IMG/VR virus record: IMGVR_UViG_3300044614_000168
Coordinates: 1-24,807 of that record
Strand: one strand, 5' to 3'
DNA: 24,807 nucleotides
Source: a virus
The notes under the pieces were generated by a model that worked only from the letters and a program-made list of their open reading frames with translations, was not told the origin of the DNA and searched no databases. A program made the translations under genes and the position numbers. Below are positions 68 through 10,200 of the stretch, piece after piece (positions within the stretch are counted from its first letter, which is position 1; every line of letters starts with the position of its first letter).

Positions 68-1291
68 TCACGCTGCTACTCCATCAAAGAAACTCTCGAG
101 GCTCGGCGTATCAGCCTTATCGAGGATCTCCACCGACTGACTATGATTGTGCTGAAGGACCAATCTGGCGTCGATGTAGTTTCTCTTACCCTCCAGGACC
201 GCCTTCACTTCGGTGGCCATGTCGACCGCAGTCTGATACGGTACGTTCTGGCAGATGTGATTGTAGCTCTGAGTGGGTGACAGCAGCTCGTAGTCGGAGG
301 GCAGACCCATGATGGTCATCGCCTCCCTGTATGTTATATACCTGTCTTCGTGCGGGTGGGTCAGCATCTTAGGGTAGTGTCCTACGAAGGCGCCGATGTG
401 GTCCTTAGGCACGATGGTCCCGCGCCGCATGATGTTGCCGCCGTCGTCCAGCTTCTTGAACATGCGATCGCACTTCTCTACTTCCTTCTCGTAACCCTCC
501 TTGGCCATCCACTCGCCGACCTGCTTGTAGGAATGCCCGTGCCACTCGATCAGGCTCTTGGCGTCTAGGTAGCGAGTAGCGATCTTGTCAGTGTCGAGCG
601 CGTCGAAGTGCTGACGATGAGTGATGCCTCCATTGATGACCTCGAGCAGGTACCGATAGTAAGGATCCTTGGTAGGCGTGTTCTTGTTGATGGGCTCCAT
701 CTGCGAGTTAGACTTCACTCCGAGGATGATGTCCTCGATGCGAGTGTAGGGCCGGCGGTAGTACCCGAGCTCAGGCACCTTCGTGTCTTGCCAGAAGAAG
801 TAGAATGTACGCTCTCGAACCTGAGGCACTCCGTGAAGCAGGCTCTTGGTGCGATACATGGTCATCGTGTATCCGTTCTTGCGACCGATCTCGATCAGCT
901 GCTTACGAATAGGCTCGCCGATCTTGCCCACGAACGTCGGAGCGTTCTCACCCCAGAATACCTTTGGCTTCATCTCTCCCAACACGTACTCGGCGGTCTT
1001 GATCATCCACTGATTGTTCGGGTTGTGCTCTCCGTATCCCATGGAGAACAGAGACAGGCCGGCACACGGACATACCGAGGAGACTACGTCTACTCGATGC
1101 GGGTGGCTACCTCCCTTGTCGAGTACGTGATAAGGAACCTCGTGGTTCCAATAGTTGAGCAGGTGCTTCTCGTTGGCGGCGAATGCTTCATAAGACAGGA
1201 TGTACTCCGGTCTAGACCCGAATACTTCAGTCGACGCGAGTGCTTCACCTCCGATTAGCGGAATGATAGTGGCGTGGGTGATGTTGCTCAT
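68..1291 (-). CDS. C5-cytosine DNA methyltransferase homologue (possibly repurposed)
   Basis: A 407-residue protein with most C5-cytosine methyltransferase blocks in order. A weak SAM-binding motif I lies near residues 10-25 (PLIGGEALAS in place of the usual DLFAGxGG). Motif IV PCAGLS at 75-80 carries the catalytic Cys76. Motif VI GENAP is at 114-118, motif VIII QVRERTF at 157-163, a target-recognition-like stretch at about 165-310, motif IX around RYITYREAMTIMGLP (317-331), and motif X CQNVP near 347-351. The family flips a cytosine and attacks C6 with the Cys to activate C5. The start overlaps the stop of the upstream gene (ATGA), so the two are coupled. Odd point: the same cluster encodes dCMP hydroxymethylase, which would leave few free C5 positions. 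The enzyme may methylate residual or host cytosine, or may act on 5-hydroxymethylcytosine. Family call fairly sure, role uncertain. Confidence 0.75.
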   Translation of the reverse strand: MSNITHATIIPLIGGEALASTEVFGSRPEYILSYEAFAANEKHLLNYWNHEVPYHVLDKGGSHPHRVDVVSSVCPCAGLSLFSMGYGEHNPNNQWMIKTAEYVLGEMKPKVFWGENAPTFVGKIGEPIRKQLIEIGRKNGYTMTMYRTKSLLHGVPQVRERTFYFFWQDTKVPELGYYRRPYTRIEDIILGVKSNSQMEPINKNTPTKDPYYRYLLEVINGGITHRQHFDALDTDKIATRYLDAKSLIEWHGHSYKQVGEWMAKEGYEKEVEKCDRMFKKLDDGGNIMRRGTIVPKDHIGAFVGHYPKMLTHPHEDRYITYREAMTIMGLPSDYELLSPTQSYNHICQNVPYQTAVDMATEVKAVLEGKRNYIDARLVLQHNHSQSVEILDKADTPSLESFFDGVAA

Positions 1292-2358
1292 GCGAATAGT
1301 CCCATAACTGTGTTAGCTTGATGCTTCTTCTCGTTGTATTCCCTGCCCTGCCAGTGAGGATAGAACTCACGAGAGAGGTGGACTGACTGCGGCTTCTCCA
1401 TGTACTTGAAGTCGAGTTCGCCCTTGTTGTTCTTCAACTTATCACACCACCTGAATAGAGTGACTCCATTACCTTGCTGCTTGGTAGCTTCATCAATGAA
1501 GATGTTGCGGATGTTATCGCGCTCATCCCACGAGCCATAGAATGGAGTACCCTCGTACCATCCGGTCTTAGGAATGGAGCGAGACTCGTTCTCGATGGGC
1601 AGTGGCTCGTAGATCTGAATTTCGCACCCGAGATCTGCTGTAATGGATTTGCACGCGTCGTAATAGTTTTTCACGAGGTCTCGGGTAGCGGCTTCAGGAT
1701 CGGACTGACGCATCAGGTGATGGCGAATGTCGATGTTGCCGAAGTAGTACTCGAGCTTCTTGAAATTCACCTTATCAGTAGGTAAGAAGCTCTTGAGTCC
1801 CATCTTCAGGGCACCATGCAGAGTCTTGAACGGGACTGAGTTGAGCATCCATTCTGGACGATACATGCAGATGGCGTGGCTGTCGCCCATGGCCGCTTTG
1901 TCGTACAGGACCAGCTCATTGGGATTGACTACCTCTGCGGTCTGTATCATGCGCTGGAGATTGGGCCAGTCTACCTCGTCCCACATCTTGTTGATCTCTT
2001 TGTTCTTCTCTCTCATCAGCTTCATCTTGTGCTGAAGATCCGCGTAGTAGTCGGGATGCGGGATCATCAGCGAGTAGACTTTGCCCTTGAACTTAGAGAA
2101 GTTCACGAAGTTGTCGATGTATGGAAACTCCTTCAACCCGCCGAACAGGTTGAGGTGACCAGACCAGTCGTTGCCATGATAGACGTACAGCTCGTCGAAC
2201 TTATTGAAGTCGTGCTGATAGAATTCGAGAGTCATATTCACGGTGACGTCTTTGCCAGACTGACGAATCTGATCGGCATAGATTACGCCCTGAGCAGCGC
2301 GATGGCTGCTCAGGTTACTTGCGATAGTGATGAAGGGGGTTGCTACGAGTGCGCTCAT
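1288..2358 (-). CDS. SGNH/GDSL-like hydrolase or acyltransferase-type protein
   Basis: A 356-residue protein. The C-terminal 200 residues show the block layout of the SGNH hydrolase superfamily: GDSH at 158-161 (predicted nucleophile Ser160), an HG pair at 181-182 in the block II region, FGNIDIRHH at 206-214 (block III, the GxND-type oxyanion Asn and Asp), then VHLS at 326-329 as the candidate block V His. The N-terminal 150 residues are not recognised. SGNH enzymes deacylate or transacylate sugars and lipids. Here the gene sits between the PLP enzyme and the methyltransferase homologue, with ATGA overlaps on both sides, so a role in adding or trimming a small group on a modified base is possible but only inferred. 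No signal peptide is seen, so it is probably cytoplasmic. Confidence 0.6.
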   Translation of the reverse strand: MSALVATPFITIASNLSSHRAAQGVIYADQIRQSGKDVTVNMTLEFYQHDFNKFDELYVYHGNDWSGHLNLFGGLKEFPYIDNFVNFSKFKGKVYSLMIPHPDYYADLQHKMKLMREKNKEINKMWDEVDWPNLQRMIQTAEVVNPNELVLYDKAAMGDSHAICMYRPEWMLNSVPFKTLHGALKMGLKSFLPTDKVNFKKLEYYFGNIDIRHHLMRQSDPEAATRDLVKNYYDACKSITADLGCEIQIYEPLPIENESRSIPKTGWYEGTPFYGSWDERDNIRNIFIDEATKQQGNGVTLFRWCDKLKNNKGELDFKYMEKPQSVHLSREFYPHWQGREYNEKKHQANTVMGLFA

Positions 2359-3245
2359 TTCAAATTCTTGTCCCAGTCACGGTAGGAGTCTATGGTATCA
2401 TATATAGCCGAATTTGTCAACACGGGTTCAGCGCCTACGTTCCACATCAGGACATTGCGCCCGGTGTTCTTCGGAATGTACTTCCAGATTTTGGCGTCGT
2501 AGGTAGATATCGCAGGGAACGGAGGCATGTTCTCAGCCTTCTCTGGAGTGGTGAATGGCAGAGGCTCAGAGATCACTTCTGCTCTTCCAAGCTCGCCCTC
2601 CTTAAGATTTCGAGCGACAGCCACGCAGGTGAACTTAGCCTTAGGCCAAGCGATCTGTAGAGCTCGAGACAGTACGCCAGTAGAGATGGCGACATACACC
2701 TCGTCTGGAGGATCGATCTTACTAGCAGCATGAACGATACCAGCAGTAGCGTATGAGTGCTTGAGTCCAAGTGGTACGAAGAATCCGTCATTCTTTTTCG
2801 CCCATTCCAATGCGTACTTATTGAGGATAGGCATCGCGGCGATTCGCTTGAAGTGCACTTCTGCTCCTCGCTCGATGCAACAGGCTTGATGAAGAGATAC
2901 CTCCTTAGAGGCAGGCATGAAGAGCACCACTCTCTTGTTGTGGTGTTTGGCAGCGTCTAGGATAGACACTCCAGCGAGTCCAGTTCGAGGCTGAGAGTAG
3001 ACGATAGTCTCGTGATTGATCTTAGACGCGAGCAAGTCGCCGGCCCTGGTCTTGGTGCCGACGATCAGGTCGTCTCTGACTACTCTTACTCCGTCGTGTT
3101 CGATCACTACTGGATCCGGGTTGTACGGAGTCCAGCCCGCGGCGAGATCGAGATAGTACTCGCGAGCTTCTTCTAACGTACAACCCGGCCAGAGCTGGGC
3201 GTCTTTGTTGATACCGTCCTGAACGTGTGTATCATGTGCCATCAA
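2355..3245 (-). CDS. PLP-dependent enzyme, fold type II (ACC deaminase/desulfhydrase-like)
   Basis: A 296-residue protein resembling the tryptophan-synthase-beta/ACC-deaminase superfamily. RDDLIVGTKTR (57-67) matches the RDD...GGNKxRK block, with Lys65 as predicted Schiff-base lysine. SQPRTGLAG (84-92) corresponds to the QSNHxRxTA substrate loop. AISTGVLSRAL (186-196) sits where the Gly-rich phosphate cup is expected. RVVLFMP is the following Rossmann-like strand. Such enzymes carry out elimination, replacement or deamination on amino acids. In phages with hypermodified thymidine, a PLP enzyme processes an amino acid attached to the base. The position next to the transferase-like gene (ATGA overlap at its own start) makes a similar job plausible here. 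Two adjacent Met codons begin the frame; I took the first. Fold call good, substrate unknown. Confidence 0.68.
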   Translation of the reverse strand: MMAHDTHVQDGINKDAQLWPGCTLEEAREYYLDLAAGWTPYNPDPVVIEHDGVRVVRDDLIVGTKTRAGDLLASKINHETIVYSQPRTGLAGVSILDAAKHHNKRVVLFMPASKEVSLHQACCIERGAEVHFKRIAAMPILNKYALEWAKKNDGFFVPLGLKHSYATAGIVHAASKIDPPDEVYVAISTGVLSRALQIAWPKAKFTCVAVARNLKEGELGRAEVISEPLPFTTPEKAENMPPFPAISTYDAKIWKYIPKNTGRNVLMWNVGAEPVLTNSAIYDTIDSYRDWDKNLK

Positions 3246-4240
3246 TTCATCCTGTCATACTTGTTTGTCTTGAGAGACCACTCTCTCGGATACACCCACT
3301 CATAAGGGATTTGTTTTGTCTGTTGTTTTATACTCATTCGAATGGCGAGGTATTTGTAGTGCATACAGAGCTTGTCCTCGAGATTCAAGAGCTTCTGTCG
3401 AACTATCGGATTAGACTTGTGATTAGCCAAGTATACCATGTGATCGACAAATTGTACACCGTGTTTATTGAGGGCAATGTACTCTCCGTACTCGTTGATC
3501 TCGTACTTCACCTTGCTCATGAGAGGAGGGCAGTCGAACACTTGCTGTAGACCATCGAAGAAGCCAGTGCCTCCGTGCAAGAAGCTCTCTGGATCTACCC
3601 ACTCGGGATGAGACATGGCTACGTGACGAGCCGCGTTCTTGCAGGGATACATGGCGTTGCGGAATCCTTGCTCGGTGACGAAGTGCTCGTTGAGGATCTT
3701 GGCAAACTCCATCATAGTGTAAGGACGGTTCTTAGCACCAAGAACGTGATGAAGAGCCTTAGCAGCCTTCTGAGGACCTGCTAGGAGCCACTCTTCTACT
3801 CTAGTGCCCTTGGGATAGTAGATCTGAAAGAGGTCAGACCTGCACGGGCGATTGCCCTCATTCAAATAGTCTCGCAGGCCCGCCTGTCCCGAGTAGATCC
3901 AAGACCCGAGAGTTAGCCAGTGCTCGTTAGTGAATGAGAATAAGATGCAAGCGTGAAGCACTGTCTCGGGATCGTCAAAAGTCTTGAGCAGATCCACGAA
4001 CGGACACTCGTCCCAGTGCAGGCGATGAGAGAACTGCTGGTAGTTCTCGGCGAGTAGAGAGTCTTCTCGCATGTCGTATGCTCGACAGAACTCGAAGAAC
4101 TTCTCAGTCCTCTCTTCCTGCGTCCAGTCCTTCATCCAGCTGCGACTCGGCTTGCCATTAGGCAGCATGTCTACGTCGGCCAGATTCTCATACTTTATGT
4201 CATTAGAACGATCAAAAAATAATTCAGTCAATCCATTCAT
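3242..4240 (-). CDS. Helical aGPT-PPlase/amino-acid:DNA transferase-like protein
   Basis: A 332-residue protein with no membrane segment. From residue about 175 it follows the pattern I associate with the alpha-glutamyl/putrescinyl-thymine pyrophosphorylase group (helical, DNA-glycosylase-related; experimentally linked to amino-acid:DNA transferases in thymidine-hypermodifying phages). The pattern is a helix ending FRNAMYPCKNAARH (193-206), a Gly-rich turn GGTGFFDGLQQVF (223-235) equivalent to GPGAxxGL, and LEDKLCMHYKY (287-297) equivalent to the VExxLCExxKY helix. These enzymes replace the pyrophosphate of an activated hydroxymethyl base with an amino acid or amine. The gene is coupled to the PLP enzyme by ATGA. 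No DNA base kinase is visible in the window, so it would have to lie elsewhere. The assignment is from pattern memory and could be wrong in detail. Confidence 0.5.
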   Translation of the reverse strand: MNGLTELFFDRSNDIKYENLADVDMLPNGKPSRSWMKDWTQEERTEKFFEFCRAYDMREDSLLAENYQQFSHRLHWDECPFVDLLKTFDDPETVLHACILFSFTNEHWLTLGSWIYSGQAGLRDYLNEGNRPCRSDLFQIYYPKGTRVEEWLLAGPQKAAKALHHVLGAKNRPYTMMEFAKILNEHFVTEQGFRNAMYPCKNAARHVAMSHPEWVDPESFLHGGTGFFDGLQQVFDCPPLMSKVKYEINEYGEYIALNKHGVQFVDHMVYLANHKSNPIVRQKLLNLEDKLCMHYKYLAIRMSIKQQTKQIPYEWVYPREWSLKTNKYDRMN

Positions 4241-4255
4241 AACAAACTTTCTAAG

Positions 4256-4597
4256 TTAGTTAGCTTTGTGCCAAGCTAGAGCGCCCTGTACTGCCTTCAC
4301 TGGATCTTTGTGTTCGCTGTCATGTAAGAGAGCAGCACCGGTTTTAGTATCTTTTCCCTTAAACGTTCCAGGACCTTCACCTACCGAAGCACGATGATGT
4401 CCATCTTCTATTTCACTGACATGGATCTGTCTACCGGATTCATGTTCGGCATGAACGGCAGGACGACCGTCAGTCTTAGTCCTCTTGACTTCCCACCCGC
4501 TCTTAAAGAGGTGATCCGCCGCGGCCTGTAAGCCTTCAGGAAAGCTAGAATTCTTGGTGGTCTCGGATAGGTACTTGACTACTTTCTGTATACTCAT
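4256..4597 (-). CDS. Small late-expressed protein of unknown function
   Basis: A 113-residue hydrophilic protein I do not recognise. It starts with a helix (MSIQKVVKYLSE), followed by a strand-rich middle (residues about 35-70, WEVKRTKTDGRPAVHAEHE and on) and a short C-terminal helix ending AVQGALAWHKAN. No signal peptide, Cys pairs or membrane segment. The start is secure: AGGAGG lies 5 nt before the ATG. Unlike all neighbours it is not coupled to the upstream gene and has its own TATAAATA late promoter just ahead. It is therefore probably made in quantity late in infection, possibly as a virion or head-internal protein, although it sits among predicted early DNA-metabolism genes. Confidence 0.75.
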   Translation of the reverse strand: MSIQKVVKYLSETTKNSSFPEGLQAAADHLFKSGWEVKRTKTDGRPAVHAEHESGRQIHVSEIEDGHHRASVGEGPGTFKGKDTKTGAALLHDSEHKDPVKAVQGALAWHKAN

Positions 4598-4620
4598 GAG
4601 TTCCTCCTATTGAGTATAGC

Positions 4621-4628
4621 TATTTATA
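4621..4628 (-). promoter_or_regulatory. T4-type late promoter, exact TATAAATA
   Basis: The minus strand reads TATAAATA, the exact -10-like box used by the gp55 late sigma factor, which this phage encodes at 13538-14110. The box lies about 24 nt upstream of the ATG of the 113-residue gene and includes the TAA stop of the upstream 390-residue gene. The resulting leader would be short and would hold a strong AGGAGG. Confidence 0.65.
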
Positions 4629-5796
4629 ATTGCGAGACCATCTGCTTGTACTGCTCCACGGTGACGCCTGCCTTCTTCAACACGGCGTCATCGGAAGGAT
4701 GAGCAGTCATTCCGTTGAAGGTCTTGACGAGACCAAGGTCAAGCATGGCTTTTTGTCGACCAAACGGGTGATCTTTAATTCTACAGCTCGACCATACTCC
4801 GTCGAAGTCCAGATGGTCGTAGTGTGCACCCGGTCTGACGTAGTTTTCCACCCATCTGATGAAGTCGCAACAAACATCTTCCGCATTGTACGGAAGAGAC
4901 TTCGTATCCGCATAGATCTTCTCCATCACTGCGTCGAGGAACTGGTCCTGACTCATCTTCTTGGTAGGCACTGCTAGATATGAGATACACTCGCGAGCAT
5001 TCGTCCCGTAGTAGAACATACTATCGAGATTGACGAACTTAGGATACCAGTCGGCGATGTCTGCTAAGACTGCGGCGTACTGGAACTGGTAGACTCGGAG
5101 GCCGTTCTTCTTATTCCAGTCGAACATCCACTCACCCATCTCGCGGAGGTCCTTCTTCGCATTACTCTTCGTGAGCCAATCGGCCATGTCGCGAGCCAGG
5201 CGAGGAGCGAACTCGGTCAAGAAGTAGTCACCGTTCCTCTTGTAAGAAGAACCCTCAGGAGGCTTAGGGAATGCCGGGAACTGGTAGCCTACCGAGGTAT
5301 AGAACGGCGTAGGATAGGTGTTCACCATCTTGGTCATGTCCTCGATGGTGTTGGCCTTGTGCAGATCGAACAAGATGGTGTTGTGATAACCAGAAGGCTG
5401 CGTGGCGTAGTTGATGGCAGACCCGCACACGCGATGCAGGATGAAGATGTAGAGCCACTCGGGGAGGTCGAAGTCCTTGTGCTTACCTGTCCACGCGTGC
5501 GCCACCATCTCGCGTTGACGAGTCACCTTGCCAGCCTTCATCTTGGGCCAGTACGGGTGCTCGTCTGTCCATCCGTAGAAGCAGTCATTGACGATCTGAG
5601 AGAAGCCGGCCAGCTTACGCTCGACGACATCATAGAGAGTCACGTTCTCCATGAGGTCGTCGTTCATCCCGGAGTCTTTGTGATCCATCATGCCGTACGG
5701 CTCTACAGTGGCCGTATTACACTTGATCTGCTGGTCTGCCGCCAGATTGAAGTATCGTATGAACTCGTCGTAGTACTGCGTAGGTTCTATGCTCAC
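4624..5796 (-). CDS. Large helical protein in the base-modification cluster, possibly a second transferase-like paralogue
   Basis: A 390-residue, mostly helical protein without membrane or export signals. I do not recognise it firmly. The stretch FQYAAVLADIADWYPKF (238-254) followed by MFYYGTNARECISYL (260-274) has the spacing of the AYExVxDL...GPGAxxGL core of the alpha-glutamyl/putrescinyl-thymine pyrophosphorylase group. It could be a diverged second member next to the 332-residue one. RPGAHYDHLDFDGVW (321-335) and CGSAINY (124-130) are other well-defined segments. The start is coupled to the preceding UDG-like gene by ATGA. A DNA-glycosylase-type or transferase function would suit the context; an unrelated helical fold cannot be excluded. 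Confidence 0.5.
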   Translation of the reverse strand: MSIEPTQYYDEFIRYFNLAADQQIKCNTATVEPYGMMDHKDSGMNDDLMENVTLYDVVERKLAGFSQIVNDCFYGWTDEHPYWPKMKAGKVTRQREMVAHAWTGKHKDFDLPEWLYIFILHRVCGSAINYATQPSGYHNTILFDLHKANTIEDMTKMVNTYPTPFYTSVGYQFPAFPKPPEGSSYKRNGDYFLTEFAPRLARDMADWLTKSNAKKDLREMGEWMFDWNKKNGLRVYQFQYAAVLADIADWYPKFVNLDSMFYYGTNARECISYLAVPTKKMSQDQFLDAVMEKIYADTKSLPYNAEDVCCDFIRWVENYVRPGAHYDHLDFDGVWSSCRIKDHPFGRQKAMLDLGLVKTFNGMTAHPSDDAVLKKAGVTVEQYKQMVSQL

Positions 5797-6239
5797 TTGC
5801 TTCCCTTCACGTATTCATGGATCAAGCGGATCTGCTCGATGCGGTTATCGAACTTATTTAGATGTCTGTTGAGACCAGAGGGATGCAATAATTTCAGGTG
5901 TGGTATGCGGAGTTCAGTCAGCACCTCTGACGCCAAGTTGCCGAGTGCGATGACTTTCTTGCCCTTCCACGGGCGAACTCGCTTGTACACAGCCTCGAAG
6001 TCTACTTGGCTAAGTCTGTCTCCACCCTCTTCATCGATGACGTTGGTGAACGACCACGAGTAGACGCAGGCAGAAGTCAGCCATGCATTGATGACTGCGT
6101 ACGTACCGCTGGCTGATGGATTATTAGTCTTAGCTGGCGACTGACCTACTACGATCACGTCTTTGCTAGGCTTATGATTGTGAATATAGTCTATGACGGT
6201 TTTCGATTGGATAGATTGCATGATATACACCGCTTTCAT
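5793..6239 (-). CDS. Uracil-DNA glycosylase superfamily protein
   Basis: A 148-residue protein with the two signature loops of the UDG superfamily. VVGQSPAKTNN (30-40) corresponds to motif 1 (GxxPGxxE) and LLHPSGLNRHLN (117-128) to the HPSxxN motif 2, with a strand and turn KVIALGNLASEVL (95-107) between them. The motif 1 acidic residue of family 4/5 enzymes is absent, so the catalytic mode is uncertain. The length is short for the superfamily but covers the core. The frame overlaps the end of the dCMP deaminase gene by 68 nt. ATG at 6239 has a GAAGAG ahead of it, ATG at 6221 is the alternative, and both overlap. In this cluster it may remove uracil or a damaged base, or act in base modification. 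Confidence 0.6.
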   Translation of the reverse strand: MKAVYIMQSIQSKTVIDYIHNHKPSKDVIVVGQSPAKTNNPSASGTYAVINAWLTSACVYSWSFTNVIDEEGGDRLSQVDFEAVYKRVRPWKGKKVIALGNLASEVLTELRIPHLKLLHPSGLNRHLNKFDNRIEQIRLIHEYVKGSK

Positions 6240-6657
6240 TAAACATCTCTTCGCTCAACTTCCAGCTCTCTCCCCATGGTCCGTCCATGAGTGTCTGGTC
6301 GAACTCCATAATCACGGTCTTGATACCAGACTGAATGACGCCCTTAGCGCAGTCAGAGCAGACTGGAAGCCCAGAGACGTAGAGCATTCCACCATCAAGG
6401 CTGACGCCATGATGGCAGGCATTGTAGATGCAGTTCATCTCGGCATGAACGACATACTTGAGCTTGAGCTCGCGATTCTTGAGCCTGCGCTCGTCGTCTG
6501 CGATACCTCGAGGGAATCCATTGTATCCCTGCGTCAGGATGCGCTTGTGCTTGTCCACGACGATGGCCCCGATCTTGGTAGAGTCTTTAGACCAAGACGC
6601 TACCTCTCTAGCCATCTTCAGAAAGCGATCGTCCCATACGTATGCTGGTGTTGTCAT
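6172..6657 (-). CDS. cd: dCMP deaminase
   Basis: A 161-residue deoxycytidylate deaminase that converts dCMP to dUMP to feed dTMP synthesis and balance the C and T pools during phage replication. The zinc site is plain: HAEMN at 71-75 (His71 ligand, Glu73 proton shuttle) and PVCSDC at 98-103 (Cys100, Cys103). GYNGFPRG (44-51) is the conserved substrate-side loop. The frame extends 39 residues further upstream, but those residues are unlike the family. MTTPAYVWDDRF begins where the family begins, and its ATG overlaps the stop of the hydroxymethylase gene as TAATG. The C-terminal 68 nt are also read as the start of the UDG-like gene. In T4 the family is allosterically controlled by dCTP/dTTP; the regulatory residues were not checked here. 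Confidence 0.93.
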   Translation of the reverse strand: MTTPAYVWDDRFLKMAREVASWSKDSTKIGAIVVDKHKRILTQGYNGFPRGIADDERRLKNRELKLKYVVHAEMNCIYNACHHGVSLDGGMLYVSGLPVCSDCAKGVIQSGIKTVIMEFDQTLMDGPWGESWKLSEEMFNESGVYHAIYPIENRHRLYSQS

Positions 6658-7313
6658 TACTTCACTAGTCCGAAGTGACGTTCGTAGACATGTAGGGAGC
6701 CGACGTTCCAGATGATAGGGCCAACCTCGCATCCAAGATCTGCGGCGAGCGACTGTTGTACATAGGACTGCCACGCGTAGTCGTTCTTATAACCATAAAC
6801 GACATCGTTGGAGCGCATGTTGACGAGGGCGTAGAGTTCTCCGTTCCGAATGAGATACTGTACGGTATTAGTGCACATGAAGTCAGACATTCCATCTGCG
6901 TTGTACTCCGTTTGCATATCAGGGCGAGTATAGATCATGATGCCGCGCCTGGAGTTAGGGTTCTGTCTCAATTCACGATAACAGCTGTCGTACTGATAAC
7001 CGTTATAACTGGACCAGACACACCATCCGTAGTTGGAGTTGATAGTGCCATTTTTACTCGCGACTTGTTGCCAGATCTTGGGAGGTCCGCCGGGAATGTC
7101 GTTGACGTTGAGGGACATCGAGCGATACCACTCGAGCTCACGCTTGACATAGTCCTCGTCGACAGTGCCGAAGATCGCGGGTTCATCTGCCACGAACTGA
7201 GCACCTATCATCTCGATCGTCTTTACACCAGTCTTGTCAGGCACGAACTCTTCGTATGCCAGAGCAGTCATGAAGTACTTACGAATGTCTTTGACGGTGT
7301 TCATCTTTATCAT
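6657..7313 (-). CDS. 42: Deoxycytidylate 5-hydroxymethylase (T4 gp42 family)
   Basis: A 218-residue thymidylate-synthase-fold enzyme that uses methylene-tetrahydrofolate to make 5-hydroxymethyl-dCMP, the precursor of hmC-containing phage DNA. Similarity to T4 gp42 is visible along the whole chain: DKTGVKTIE, ADEPAIFG, KIWQQVAS, INSNYGW, SRRGIMIYTRP, MCTNTVQYLI and IIWNVGSLHVY. Numbered from MIKM, the catalytic Cys is 147 (SDFMCTN) and Asp178 (KNDYAW) replaces the Asn of thymidylate synthase, matching Cys148/Asp179 of T4 and favouring dCMP over dUMP. The open frame extends 17 residues upstream, but ATG 7313 overlaps the preceding stop (ATGA), follows a GGGG, and aligns with the T4 start. Odd: the chain stops at YERHFGLVK, roughly 25 residues shorter than T4 gp42 at the C-terminus. 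Confidence 0.95.
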   Translation of the reverse strand: MIKMNTVKDIRKYFMTALAYEEFVPDKTGVKTIEMIGAQFVADEPAIFGTVDEDYVKRELEWYRSMSLNVNDIPGGPPKIWQQVASKNGTINSNYGWCVWSSYNGYQYDSCYRELRQNPNSRRGIMIYTRPDMQTEYNADGMSDFMCTNTVQYLIRNGELYALVNMRSNDVVYGYKNDYAWQSYVQQSLAADLGCEVGPIIWNVGSLHVYERHFGLVK

Positions 7314-8456: not shown

Positions 8457-8951
8457 TTACTCGAAGATCTTCGAGAGAGTGCCGTGATTGCCGGTGTGAT
8501 CCGGCCCGACCCAGCCCGGAGGCTTGATCAGATCTGGCAGACCCAGAGGGTTCGGCCTAGATTCCTTGATGCCAACTTCCTTATTGAGATTGGCCTTTAA
8601 TACTTCGTCCCACGCCTGATTGGCGTCGACACCATAAGCATCGAGAGTACCGATGGCCACGACGCAGAGGTCGATGAGGGCATCCACTACGTCTTCAGCG
8701 GACGTGGCATTCTTCATCTCGTCCAGTTCTTCCTGCAAGAACTGGATGCGAAACTGAAGGAACTTCCTCATCTTATCCTTGTCCATGTTAGCCATGGCAG
8801 TGTGAGTGCCGAACTTCTCGTGCATCTCGAAGATGTCGTGTGACCAGTTAGTGCTCATATCTTGTTCCTTCAATTTCAATTTTCTATACTCAGGACTCGT
8901 GAAGTACTCATATAGTACGTCATATGTATCTATCCACTCTTCACGCGGCAT
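8457..8951 (-). CDS. MazG/PRA-PH-like nucleotide pyrophosphohydrolase
   Basis: A 164-residue all-alpha protein. FLQEELDEM (71-79) followed by AEDVVDALIDL (85-95) gives the ExxE...(E/D)xxD metal-binding pattern of the MazG/phosphoribosyl-ATP pyrophosphohydrolase superfamily. WDEVLKANLNK (114-124) is the usual following helix, and the Pro/Gly-rich tail (LIKPPGWVGPDH) is common in phage members. It probably hydrolyses a nucleoside triphosphate to the monophosphate, perhaps dCTP or dUTP in a phage that modifies cytosine. Two starts are credible: ATG 8951 (GGAG 8 nt ahead, overlapping the upstream stop) and ATG 8858 (AAGGAAC ahead, MSTNWSHDIF), where relatives seem to begin. The extra 31 residues are charged and aromatic and not part of the family core. 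Confidence 0.72.
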   Translation of the reverse strand: MPREEWIDTYDVLYEYFTSPEYRKLKLKEQDMSTNWSHDIFEMHEKFGTHTAMANMDKDKMRKFLQFRIQFLQEELDEMKNATSAEDVVDALIDLCVVAIGTLDAYGVDANQAWDEVLKANLNKEVGIKESRPNPLGLPDLIKPPGWVGPDHTGNHGTLSKIFE

Positions 8952-9480
8952 TGATCCACTCCGGCGGCTCGCGATTCGTCCACTTATGCATGGACGCCTT
9001 CCCGATCTTATAGTAGTGACGATAATTTGTCAACGGATCTTCGCTGATCCGATACTCGGGAGCCATTGCCGACGGCATGGGAGTCATGTCGAAGTCCTTG
9101 AGGTTGTGAGGAGGCGACTGGAGAAGCAGCAGCAAATCGAAGCACTTGTGGCGCTTGAAGTACCGATGAGTATACTCGTCCAGTAGGCCCGCGAAGTGCT
9201 CCACTAGCCACAAGTAGTTCTCTACAGAAGTACGGCACCAGACAGCCGACGGATGGTTGACGTGGGTAGCCGTGTAGATCACGTGCTCGCGCTCGTCTGA
9301 CAGGATCCAGCGCTTAGTCTTGCGACCAGTCTTGGATAAAGCCGGCCTCTGCTCACCATCGAGTATGCGGTGCGCAGTAGACATGAGCTGCGCAGACTCG
9401 AGGATCATCTTGACGACGTGCTTATCCACGAGTGACTGGGCCGCTACGACTGGATCCTTGTCGACGTAAAAGATATTCAT
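8941..9480 (-). CDS. Conserved phage protein of unknown function (DKHVVKM family)
   Basis: A 179-residue protein. MNIFYVDKDPVVAAQSLVDK and the next segment HVVKMILESAQLMSTAHR, then NHPSAVWCRTSVENYLWL (75-92) and MAPEYR (139-144), are patterns I have seen repeatedly in large myoviruses without a proven function. The many conserved His, Trp and Arg residues suggest an enzyme or nucleic-acid-binding protein rather than a structural one. The open frame runs 43 residues further upstream, but that part overlaps the end of deformylase and the small exported protein and is unlike the family; GCGGAA precedes ATG 9480. The end overlaps the MazG-like gene by 11 nt. Confidence 0.75.
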   Translation of the reverse strand: MNIFYVDKDPVVAAQSLVDKHVVKMILESAQLMSTAHRILDGEQRPALSKTGRKTKRWILSDEREHVIYTATHVNHPSAVWCRTSVENYLWLVEHFAGLLDEYTHRYFKRHKCFDLLLLLQSPPHNLKDFDMTPMPSAMAPEYRISEDPLTNYRHYYKIGKASMHKWTNREPPEWINAA

Positions 9481-9482
9481 TG

Positions 9483-9701
9483 CTATTCCGCTACTTCTAC
9501 CATGAATTTGTAGCCAGATTCTACATCGATCTCGCGAGAAAGTAAAACGTTTTTTTGCGAGTCTATGAGTTTTACTTTGACTTTCTTGACCCCGTCCGGC
9601 ACGATCCACTCACCCTTGCCTCGAGACTTTGCGTTGGCGAGCGAGCTCATTAGCGGCAAGCTCAAGAGGAGCGAAGAAGCTATCATTCTGCGATTTAACA
9701 T
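9483..9701 (-). CDS. Small exported protein with cleavable signal peptide
   Basis: A 72-residue frame. Residues 1-24 form a clear Sec-type signal peptide: MLNRR, a hydrophobic core (MIASSLLLSLPLMSS) and an AxA cleavage site LANA before KSRGKG. The mature part is about 48 residues with alternating strands (GEWIVPDGVKKVKVKL, then VLLSREIDV, then YKFMVEVAE), so probably a small beta protein in the periplasm. The first 92 nt lie inside the 3' end of the deformylase gene in another frame. The rest fills an otherwise empty 130-nt gap. AAGGG precedes the ATG by 9 nt. The export signal supports it being real. A role at the cell envelope (lysis, superinfection block) is only a guess. Confidence 0.6.
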   Translation of the reverse strand: MLNRRMIASSLLLSLPLMSSLANAKSRGKGEWIVPDGVKKVKVKLIDSQKNVLLSREIDVESGYKFMVEVAE

Positions 9702-10200
9702 GTATCTTACCCTTTGCTGCTTTCTTGAAGATCTGCTCTCTCTTGAATCTAGGCAAGTGATTGAAGAACAGGATTCCGTTTAAGTGGTCCATCTCGTGTT
9801 GTACCACCCTGGCGCTCATGCCAGTGAACTTCTTGGTAGTCGTCTGGCCGTCTGGTCCAGTGAAACGAATCTTGATGTGACGAGCCCTAGCGATTGGAGC
9901 CACGACTCCTGGAAATGAGAGGCAACCCTCGTCTAGAGTGATGGTCTCGTTAGAGACGTCTACTAGTTTCGGATTGAACATGACGTGATTAGGTTGACCG
10001 ATCATGGCAAACACGGCGTAGGGCAACCCTACTTGGCAGGCAGACAGACCCATGCCGTTGTTGTCTATCATGATCTTAACCATGGCCTCGGCGAGGTCCC
10101 ACGGATCACACGGCGGGCTGTTGAAGTCGAACTTCTCTGCCGGCTTCATGAGAATAGGCTCTTTGCCGGTGATGAGTTTCAAATTACTCAGGTCAATCAT
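9610..10200 (-). CDS. def: Peptide deformylase
   Basis: A 196-residue metal-dependent deformylase that removes the N-formyl group from nascent proteins at the ribosome exit. All three family motifs are intact: GMGLSACQ (49-56, motif 1 GxGxxAxQ), EGCLS (91-95, metal ligand Cys93) and QHEMDH (134-139, ligands His135 and His139 with catalytic Glu136). The length is normal. The C-terminal 30 residues after the catalytic helix are a basic extension that overlaps the small exported protein's gene. The start overlaps the stop of the 76-residue gene upstream. Phage deformylases are known in marine phages, where they are thought to help turnover of highly made proteins. Likely active. Confidence 0.95.
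   Translation of the reverse strand: MIDLSNLKLITGKEPILMKPAEKFDFNSPPCDPWDLAEAMVKIMIDNNGMGLSACQVGLPYAVFAMIGQPNHVMFNPKLVDVSNETITLDEGCLSFPGVVAPIARARHIKIRFTGPDGQTTTKKFTGMSARVVQHEMDHLNGILFFNHLPRFKREQIFKKAAKGKIHVKSQNDSFFAPLELAANELARQRKVSRQG

Follow-up and report, generated by a model that had tools for sequence, protein, structure and literature searches.

A candidate 5-hydroxymethylcytosine hypermodification cassette of the amino-acid/PLP type in T4-like phages

Gene content and conservation of the cassette

The DNA analysed here (the window: positions 1 to 24,807 of IMG/VR virus record IMGVR_UViG_3300044614_000168) is a genome fragment of 24.8 kb from a phage of the T4 superfamily. On its minus strand, from position 7313 down to 68, gp42 is followed by genes for a dCMP deaminase, a UDG-like protein and the proteins that we call P6, P5, P4, P3, P2 and P1, with overlaps of 1–4 bp between neighbouring open reading frames (ORFs) in most cases. 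We consider it fairly probable that this locus is a hypermodification cassette of the amino-acid/pyridoxal phosphate (PLP) type, acting on 5-hydroxymethylcytosine (hmC). It comprises the following genes.

6657..7313, minus strand: gp42-type dCMP 5-hydroxymethylase, 218 aa, with Asp178 and Cys147
6172..6657, minus strand: dCMP deaminase (Pfam 5e-19, PHROG 6e-37; start re-set to 6657)
5793..6239, minus strand: UDG-superfamily-like protein, optional (Pfam UDG, E 0.0025, below the cut-off)
4624..5796, minus strand: P6, 390 aa, helical, with a predicted amino-acid:DNA transferase (PUGT-like) fold (AlphaFold model)
4256..4597, minus strand: P5, small protein found in the closest relatives only, with no Pfam or PHROG match
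3242..4240, minus strand: P4, 332 aa, second helical protein, probably of the same superfamily by a signature motif, absent from some loci
2355..3245, minus strand: P3, fold-II PLP enzyme with candidate PLP lysine K65, related to the 'threonine dehydratase' proteins of M6, CN2 and Pam3
1288..2358, minus strand: P2, 356 aa, SGNH-fold protein with a BGT-like N-terminal region (predicted fold, invariant residues)
68..1291, minus strand: P1, C5-cytosine methyltransferase homologue, optional (Pfam 1e-16)

The first-pass annotation had described a run of nearly all overlapping genes with a dCMP deaminase and a gp42-type hydroxymethylase bearing the dCMP-specific Asp178, and all of this is borne out. 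The gp42 protein is 66–67% identical to T4-type dCMP hydroxymethylases, aligns with the T4 structure 1b49 at 318 bits, and has Asp at specificity position 178 together with the catalytic Cys147. Because it is T4-like in these respects, hmC is the expected base. The C5-methyltransferase homologue is clear; for the UDG-like protein the ORF exists and its match to the family is weak.

About 200 loci repeat this gene order, and the cassette is therefore a real unit rather than a chance arrangement. Many uncultivated T4-like phages share the strongly conserved order gp42-(dCMP deaminase)-(UDG-like)-P6-(P4)-P3-P2-(P1). IMG/VR scans returned 351 relatives of P4 and, by alignment, at least 596 of P2 and at least 491 of P6. 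Among 150 non-identical P6 proteins, 60 are encoded with at least 4.5 kb of upstream DNA, and gp42 lies upstream in 51 of these 60; in one further locus (L040) it is also present, overlooked by the ORF caller and thus scored as absent. In 37 the specificity residue was scored as Asp, and fragments left unresolved also show Asp wherever they extend that far. The expected co-occurrence with gp42 homologues is thus found, and they are of the dCMP type where read. Downstream of P6, the 83 loci with enough DNA contain P2 (81), P3 (79), P4 (62) and P1 (16), and the UDG-like gene occurs in 84 of 231 loci. The core of the proposed gene set is therefore recurrent, whereas the methyltransferase homologue and the UDG-like protein are optional members. 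Only five contigs of cellular genomes carry P6, and each belongs to a binned or metagenome-assembled genome; both that were inspected (L280, L283) are T4-like phage DNA.

Predicted functions of the encoded proteins

The P6 model (pLDDT 88) has as its best solved-structure match 8z2n (Z 9.9, root-mean-square deviation 3.8, 209 residues aligned), which is PaMx11 gp46/PUGT, the 5-phosphomethyl-dU glycinyltransferase, and stands 1.9 Z units above the next row. P6 is thus predicted to have a PUGT-type fold, a statement about fold and not function. In BFVD the top match of the model, 63% identical, bears the automatic name 'Amino acid:DNA transferase domain-containing', and lower matches carry automatic names of PhiW-14 HMUDK-helical and aGPT-PPlase1 proteins. 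In the C-terminal region, a signature that we defined after inspection of the alignments, E-x3-C-x3-[KR], is present in 130/130 P6 proteins and in 99% of 103 P4 proteins, compared with at most 29% in each of 60 other families; forms close to it occur in PUGT and aGPT-PPlase1. Judged by this motif, P4 probably belongs to the same P6/PUGT/aGPT-PPlase superfamily, and a weak profile match links P4 to P6 (hhalign P=0.003, probability 11%). Scans of P4 and P6 against Pfam, PHROG, NCBIfam and PADLOC gave nothing useful. In a sequence search of solved structures P6 found only chance haemagglutinin matches and P4 none, and tblastn of both proteins (P6 at E 0.01) found no GenBank isolate phage.

The structural matches that follow PUGT are helix-hairpin-helix (HhH) DNA glycosylases, a UDG-like gene is often adjacent, and in two loci (L090/L091) a P6-P4 pair sits beside an HhH-GPD DNA glycosylase, with no P3 or P2 in the stretch examined. 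These observations could be taken to mean that the helical and PLP genes form a repair or anti-defence module merely travelling with gp42. We give this very little credence, given that P3 has a known hypermodification PLP enzyme among its relatives and that P2, P3, P4 and P6 are all without a match in PADLOC.

P3 matches the PHROG 'threonine dehydratase' and cysteine synthases, and can be aligned with the PLP enzymes of the hypermodification clusters of M6, Bordetella CN2 and Pseudanabaena Pam3 (BLAST down to 2e-6). Eighteen invariant columns are common to them, including K65, which lies within a [TS]-K-x-R motif kept across the M6, CN2 and Pam3 enzymes. The assignment as a fold-II PLP enzyme is therefore upheld and can be narrowed to homology with the M6-type enzyme. 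In Erythrobacter and Microcystis phages (L093/L094), P3 relatives carry the annotation DNA methylase, and that of Mae-JY30 adjoins ParB- and sulfiredoxin-like genes.

P2 had been called SGNH-like. This holds for residues ~144–353 of the predicted model (Z 13.2 to 2hsj), while the N-terminal third shows a weak likeness to T4 beta-glucosyltransferase (BGT), namely to its first domain. Ser160, Gly182, Glu321 and His327 are invariant in 137/137 sequences and Asn208 is kept in 121; the usual Asp of the DxxH motif is missing, and the invariant Glu321 stands in its stead. At the N-terminal third the BGT family (PF09198) gives sub-threshold matches in 13 of 28 members, none of which reaches the gathering score (best single protein 2.4e-4). 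In P1 the PC, EN and RxR motifs are intact and the S-adenosylmethionine (SAM)-binding part has diverged, with the Pfam match beginning only past SAM-binding motif I; an ordinary methyltransferase is possible.

A putative pathway and its alternatives

The best reading of the locus is that amino-acid/PLP hypermodification, known from 5-hydroxymethyluracil (hmU), has been shifted here to hmC. Cytosines would then probably bear a previously undescribed amino-acid-derived decoration and not the glucose of T4, the likely product being an aminoacyl- or aminoalkyl-methylcytosine. In such a pathway gp42 would make hm-dCMP, which is built into DNA as hmC, a step strongly indicated by its identity to T4 gp42. 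P6, probably with P4, would act on DNA and join an amino acid to hmC at its C5 methylene, in the manner of PUGT, which places glycine onto 5-phosphomethyl-dU, as fold and motif suggest. P3, by its homology to the M6-type enzyme, may then use PLP to convert this amino acid, the simplest reaction being a decarboxylation to an amine. More speculatively, P2 could catalyse a transfer or hydrolysis of the acyl type, making or breaking an ester or amide on hmC or on its adduct, and might serve either to turn the hydroxyl into a leaving group or to cap the product. P1 would be an optional base-flipping accessory.

Several results weigh against this pathway. Neither P6 nor P4 matches the Pfam families aGPT-PPlase, ADDT or HMUDK_hel even at E 10, and no significant hhalign match of P4 or P6 to the PUGT or aGPT-PPlase1 profiles was obtained; moreover, the Z score of the P6 model is moderate for a helical protein and is no proof alone. 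The first-pass idea that one helical protein resembles this transferase group therefore stands for the predicted fold of P6 and not for family membership, profiles reaching neither protein. Known thymidine pathways need a base kinase. We searched 12 long cassette contigs (118–168 kb, possibly incomplete), and the profile of the hmdU-type base kinase was silent in all of them, while three control phages of the M6/SP10 type matched (E 2e-23 to 9e-82). Finally, among the cassette genes we identified neither a radical-SAM nor an FAD enzyme. The earlier proposal that hmU logic operates on hmC is accordingly sustained by the transferase fold, the PLP homology and the tie to gp42, while its phosphorylate-then-join step finds no support in these 12 contigs.

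Nor was T4 gp1, the dNMP kinase, found in the same 12 contigs, although the search did find it in T4, 44RR and Aes012, yet phosphorylation of hm-dCMP is needed after gp42. The failure to find either kinase would fit modification at the nucleotide level, on hm-dCMP or hm-dCTP before polymerisation, for which there is a precedent in an hmC carbamoyltransferase that acts on 5hmdCTP as well as on DNA (PMC8670742). The chance of this appears slim to us, since P6 falls by its fold among PUGT and the base-flipping DNA glycosylases, and P1 is a homologue of DNA methyltransferases.

The first-pass annotation had also found no glucosyltransferase of the T4 type. This is supported in the 12 relatives, in which no BGT rises above the cut-off, and a sub-threshold match in nine of them falls on the P2 gene where coordinates were compared. 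It is qualified by sugar genes near divergent cassettes. In L081 and L082 a gene for a GT2 enzyme and one resembling UDP-galactopyranose mutase come after the cassette (L081:7268-14086, in the order P2-thioredoxin-like-P6-P4-P3), in Aes012 a UDP-galactopyranose mutase adjoins the P2 homologue, and in a close relative an NDP-sugar epimerase lies downstream of the cassette (L084:8053-8982). Since sugar genes accompany divergent cassettes, glycosylation may occur in some of these phages. Together with the BGT-like N-terminus of P2 and the GT-A-like gene c6, which directly precedes gp45 in 128 loci (e.g. L145:8152-9114), these genes raise the prospect that hmC is mainly glycosylated by enzymes encoded elsewhere in the genome, and that P2, P6 and P3 decorate the sugar or have another role. 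We judge this unlikely: most cassettes contain no internal glycosyltransferase, the catalytic half of P2 is SGNH and not GT-B, and P6 matches base-level transferases.

The gene c6 itself was rejected as the hmC glycosyltransferase. It is found also in phiM12, Cr30 and DLP6. In cassette phages gp42 and the cassette lie between gp46 and c6/gp45, whereas the stretch examined of Sinorhizobium phage phiM12 has the order gp46-c6-gp45 and contains neither gp42 nor the cassette; c6 therefore looks like a core gene.

Related cassettes, known systems and significance

Some loci keep only part of the cassette. In L178, L180 and L182 (e.g. L182:4198-9222) P2 and P1 are retained, and P6-P4-P3 behind gp42 are replaced by a myo-inositol-phosphate synthase, a small protein and an HMUDK_hel protein that scores over the Pfam cut-off. 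The evidence for the inositol-1-phosphate synthase consists of Pfam matches of 1.3e-7 and 1.5e-23 and an NCBIfam match of 201 bits, below the equivalog cut-off. This gene content hints at an inositol-type modification of hmC. Aeromonas phages 44RR, 31 and 25, which have gp42 and no known glucosyltransferase (PMC2993671), all encode P2 homologues. In 44RR this is the N-terminal part (33% identity) of a 795-aa protein (ORF233c, L002:6001-8388), whose C-terminus is homologous to the HMUDK_hel protein of L178, L180 and L182 (31% over 355 residues); the fusion is a candidate for the hmC modification of 44RR. The recurring theme is P2 plus a helical aGPT-type protein, beside gp42 or fused together, with P2 as the constant partner across cassette versions, and the small-molecule donor appears to differ among them. 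A modular, kinase-free hmC family would fit this picture, in which P2, standing in for the base kinase, esterifies the hydroxyl of hmC and interchangeable helical transferases displace the ester, the nucleophiles being amino acids here, inositol-derived groups in L180 and L182 and another group in the 44RR type. It is a tentative scheme, to which we assign a modest chance.

With regard to known systems, the route of Pseudomonas phages M6/PaMx11 and their relatives leads from hmdU through 5-phosphomethyl-dU to glycinyl-dU and further steps. Both combine a hydroxymethylase with a nearby transferase of PUGT fold, another helical protein and a PLP enzyme, the PLP enzymes being homologous. The cassette differs in its dCMP-type hydroxymethylase (Asp178), hence hmC, in its T4-superfamily genome and in the additional SGNH protein; moreover, no base kinase was found in the 12 long contigs and no radical-SAM or FAD enzyme in the cassette itself. 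The pathway of Salmonella phage ViI, which uses a base kinase, is the nearest functional analogy, drawn from logic and not from sequence comparison: an amino-acid transferase and PLP logic with no radical-SAM step, on hmU there and on hmC here. Its product is 5-NeOmdU (PMC6449724). We do not file the cassette as a member of the M6/PaMx11 or ViI systems, since it acts on another base and a search for the kinase in the 12 long contigs found none. With the glycosyl-hmC phages T4 and RB69 it shares gp42, dCMP deaminase, a T4-type genome and the BGT-like N-terminus of P2; it differs in the lack of a BGT over the cut-off, in the SGNH C-terminus of P2 and in the PLP enzyme and helical transferase.

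Outside the cassette, a further gene invites comparison with phages encoding a 5-hmC carbamoyltransferase (MetaGPA, PMC8670742), which also have an Asp-type thymidylate-synthase homologue, dCMP deaminase and PRA-PH.

8457..8951, minus strand: PRA-PH/MazG-type nucleotide pyrophosphohydrolase (Pfam PF01503, 1.5e-8)

It may possibly clear dCTP. In contrast to those phages, no carbamoyltransferase was found in the 12 long cassette relatives. Next to this gene lie a T4 endonuclease V-like pyrimidine dimer glycosylase (8941-9609, PF03013) and a phage peptide deformylase (9610-10200, PF01327). The window also encodes gp46/gp47, gp55, UvsW, UvsY and a major capsid protein whose nearest relative is that of Stenotrophomonas phage DLP6 (67%).

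The CmoX/CmoY route to 5-carboxymethylcytosine (PMC12783734) likewise yields an amino-acid-bearing phage cytosine and involves a C5-methyltransferase homologue; there the handle is carboxymethyl and the amide ligase ATP-dependent, whereas here the handle is hmC. In the literature we found, the decorations described for hmC are sugars and carbamoyl (PMC8670742, PMC6024577), and the CmoX/CmoY route is the only one to an amino-acid-bearing cytosine (PMC12783734).

Phage 44RR, which has gp42 and no known glucosyltransferase, encodes both P2 and an HMUDK_hel-like domain, so that a question open since 2010 (PMC2993671) can now be addressed in a phage that is in culture. If the amino-acid/PLP pathway does act on hmC, a new class would be added to the known phage DNA bases, new enzymes would become available for hmC labelling, and the way in which many uncultivated T4-like phages may protect their DNA would be explained.

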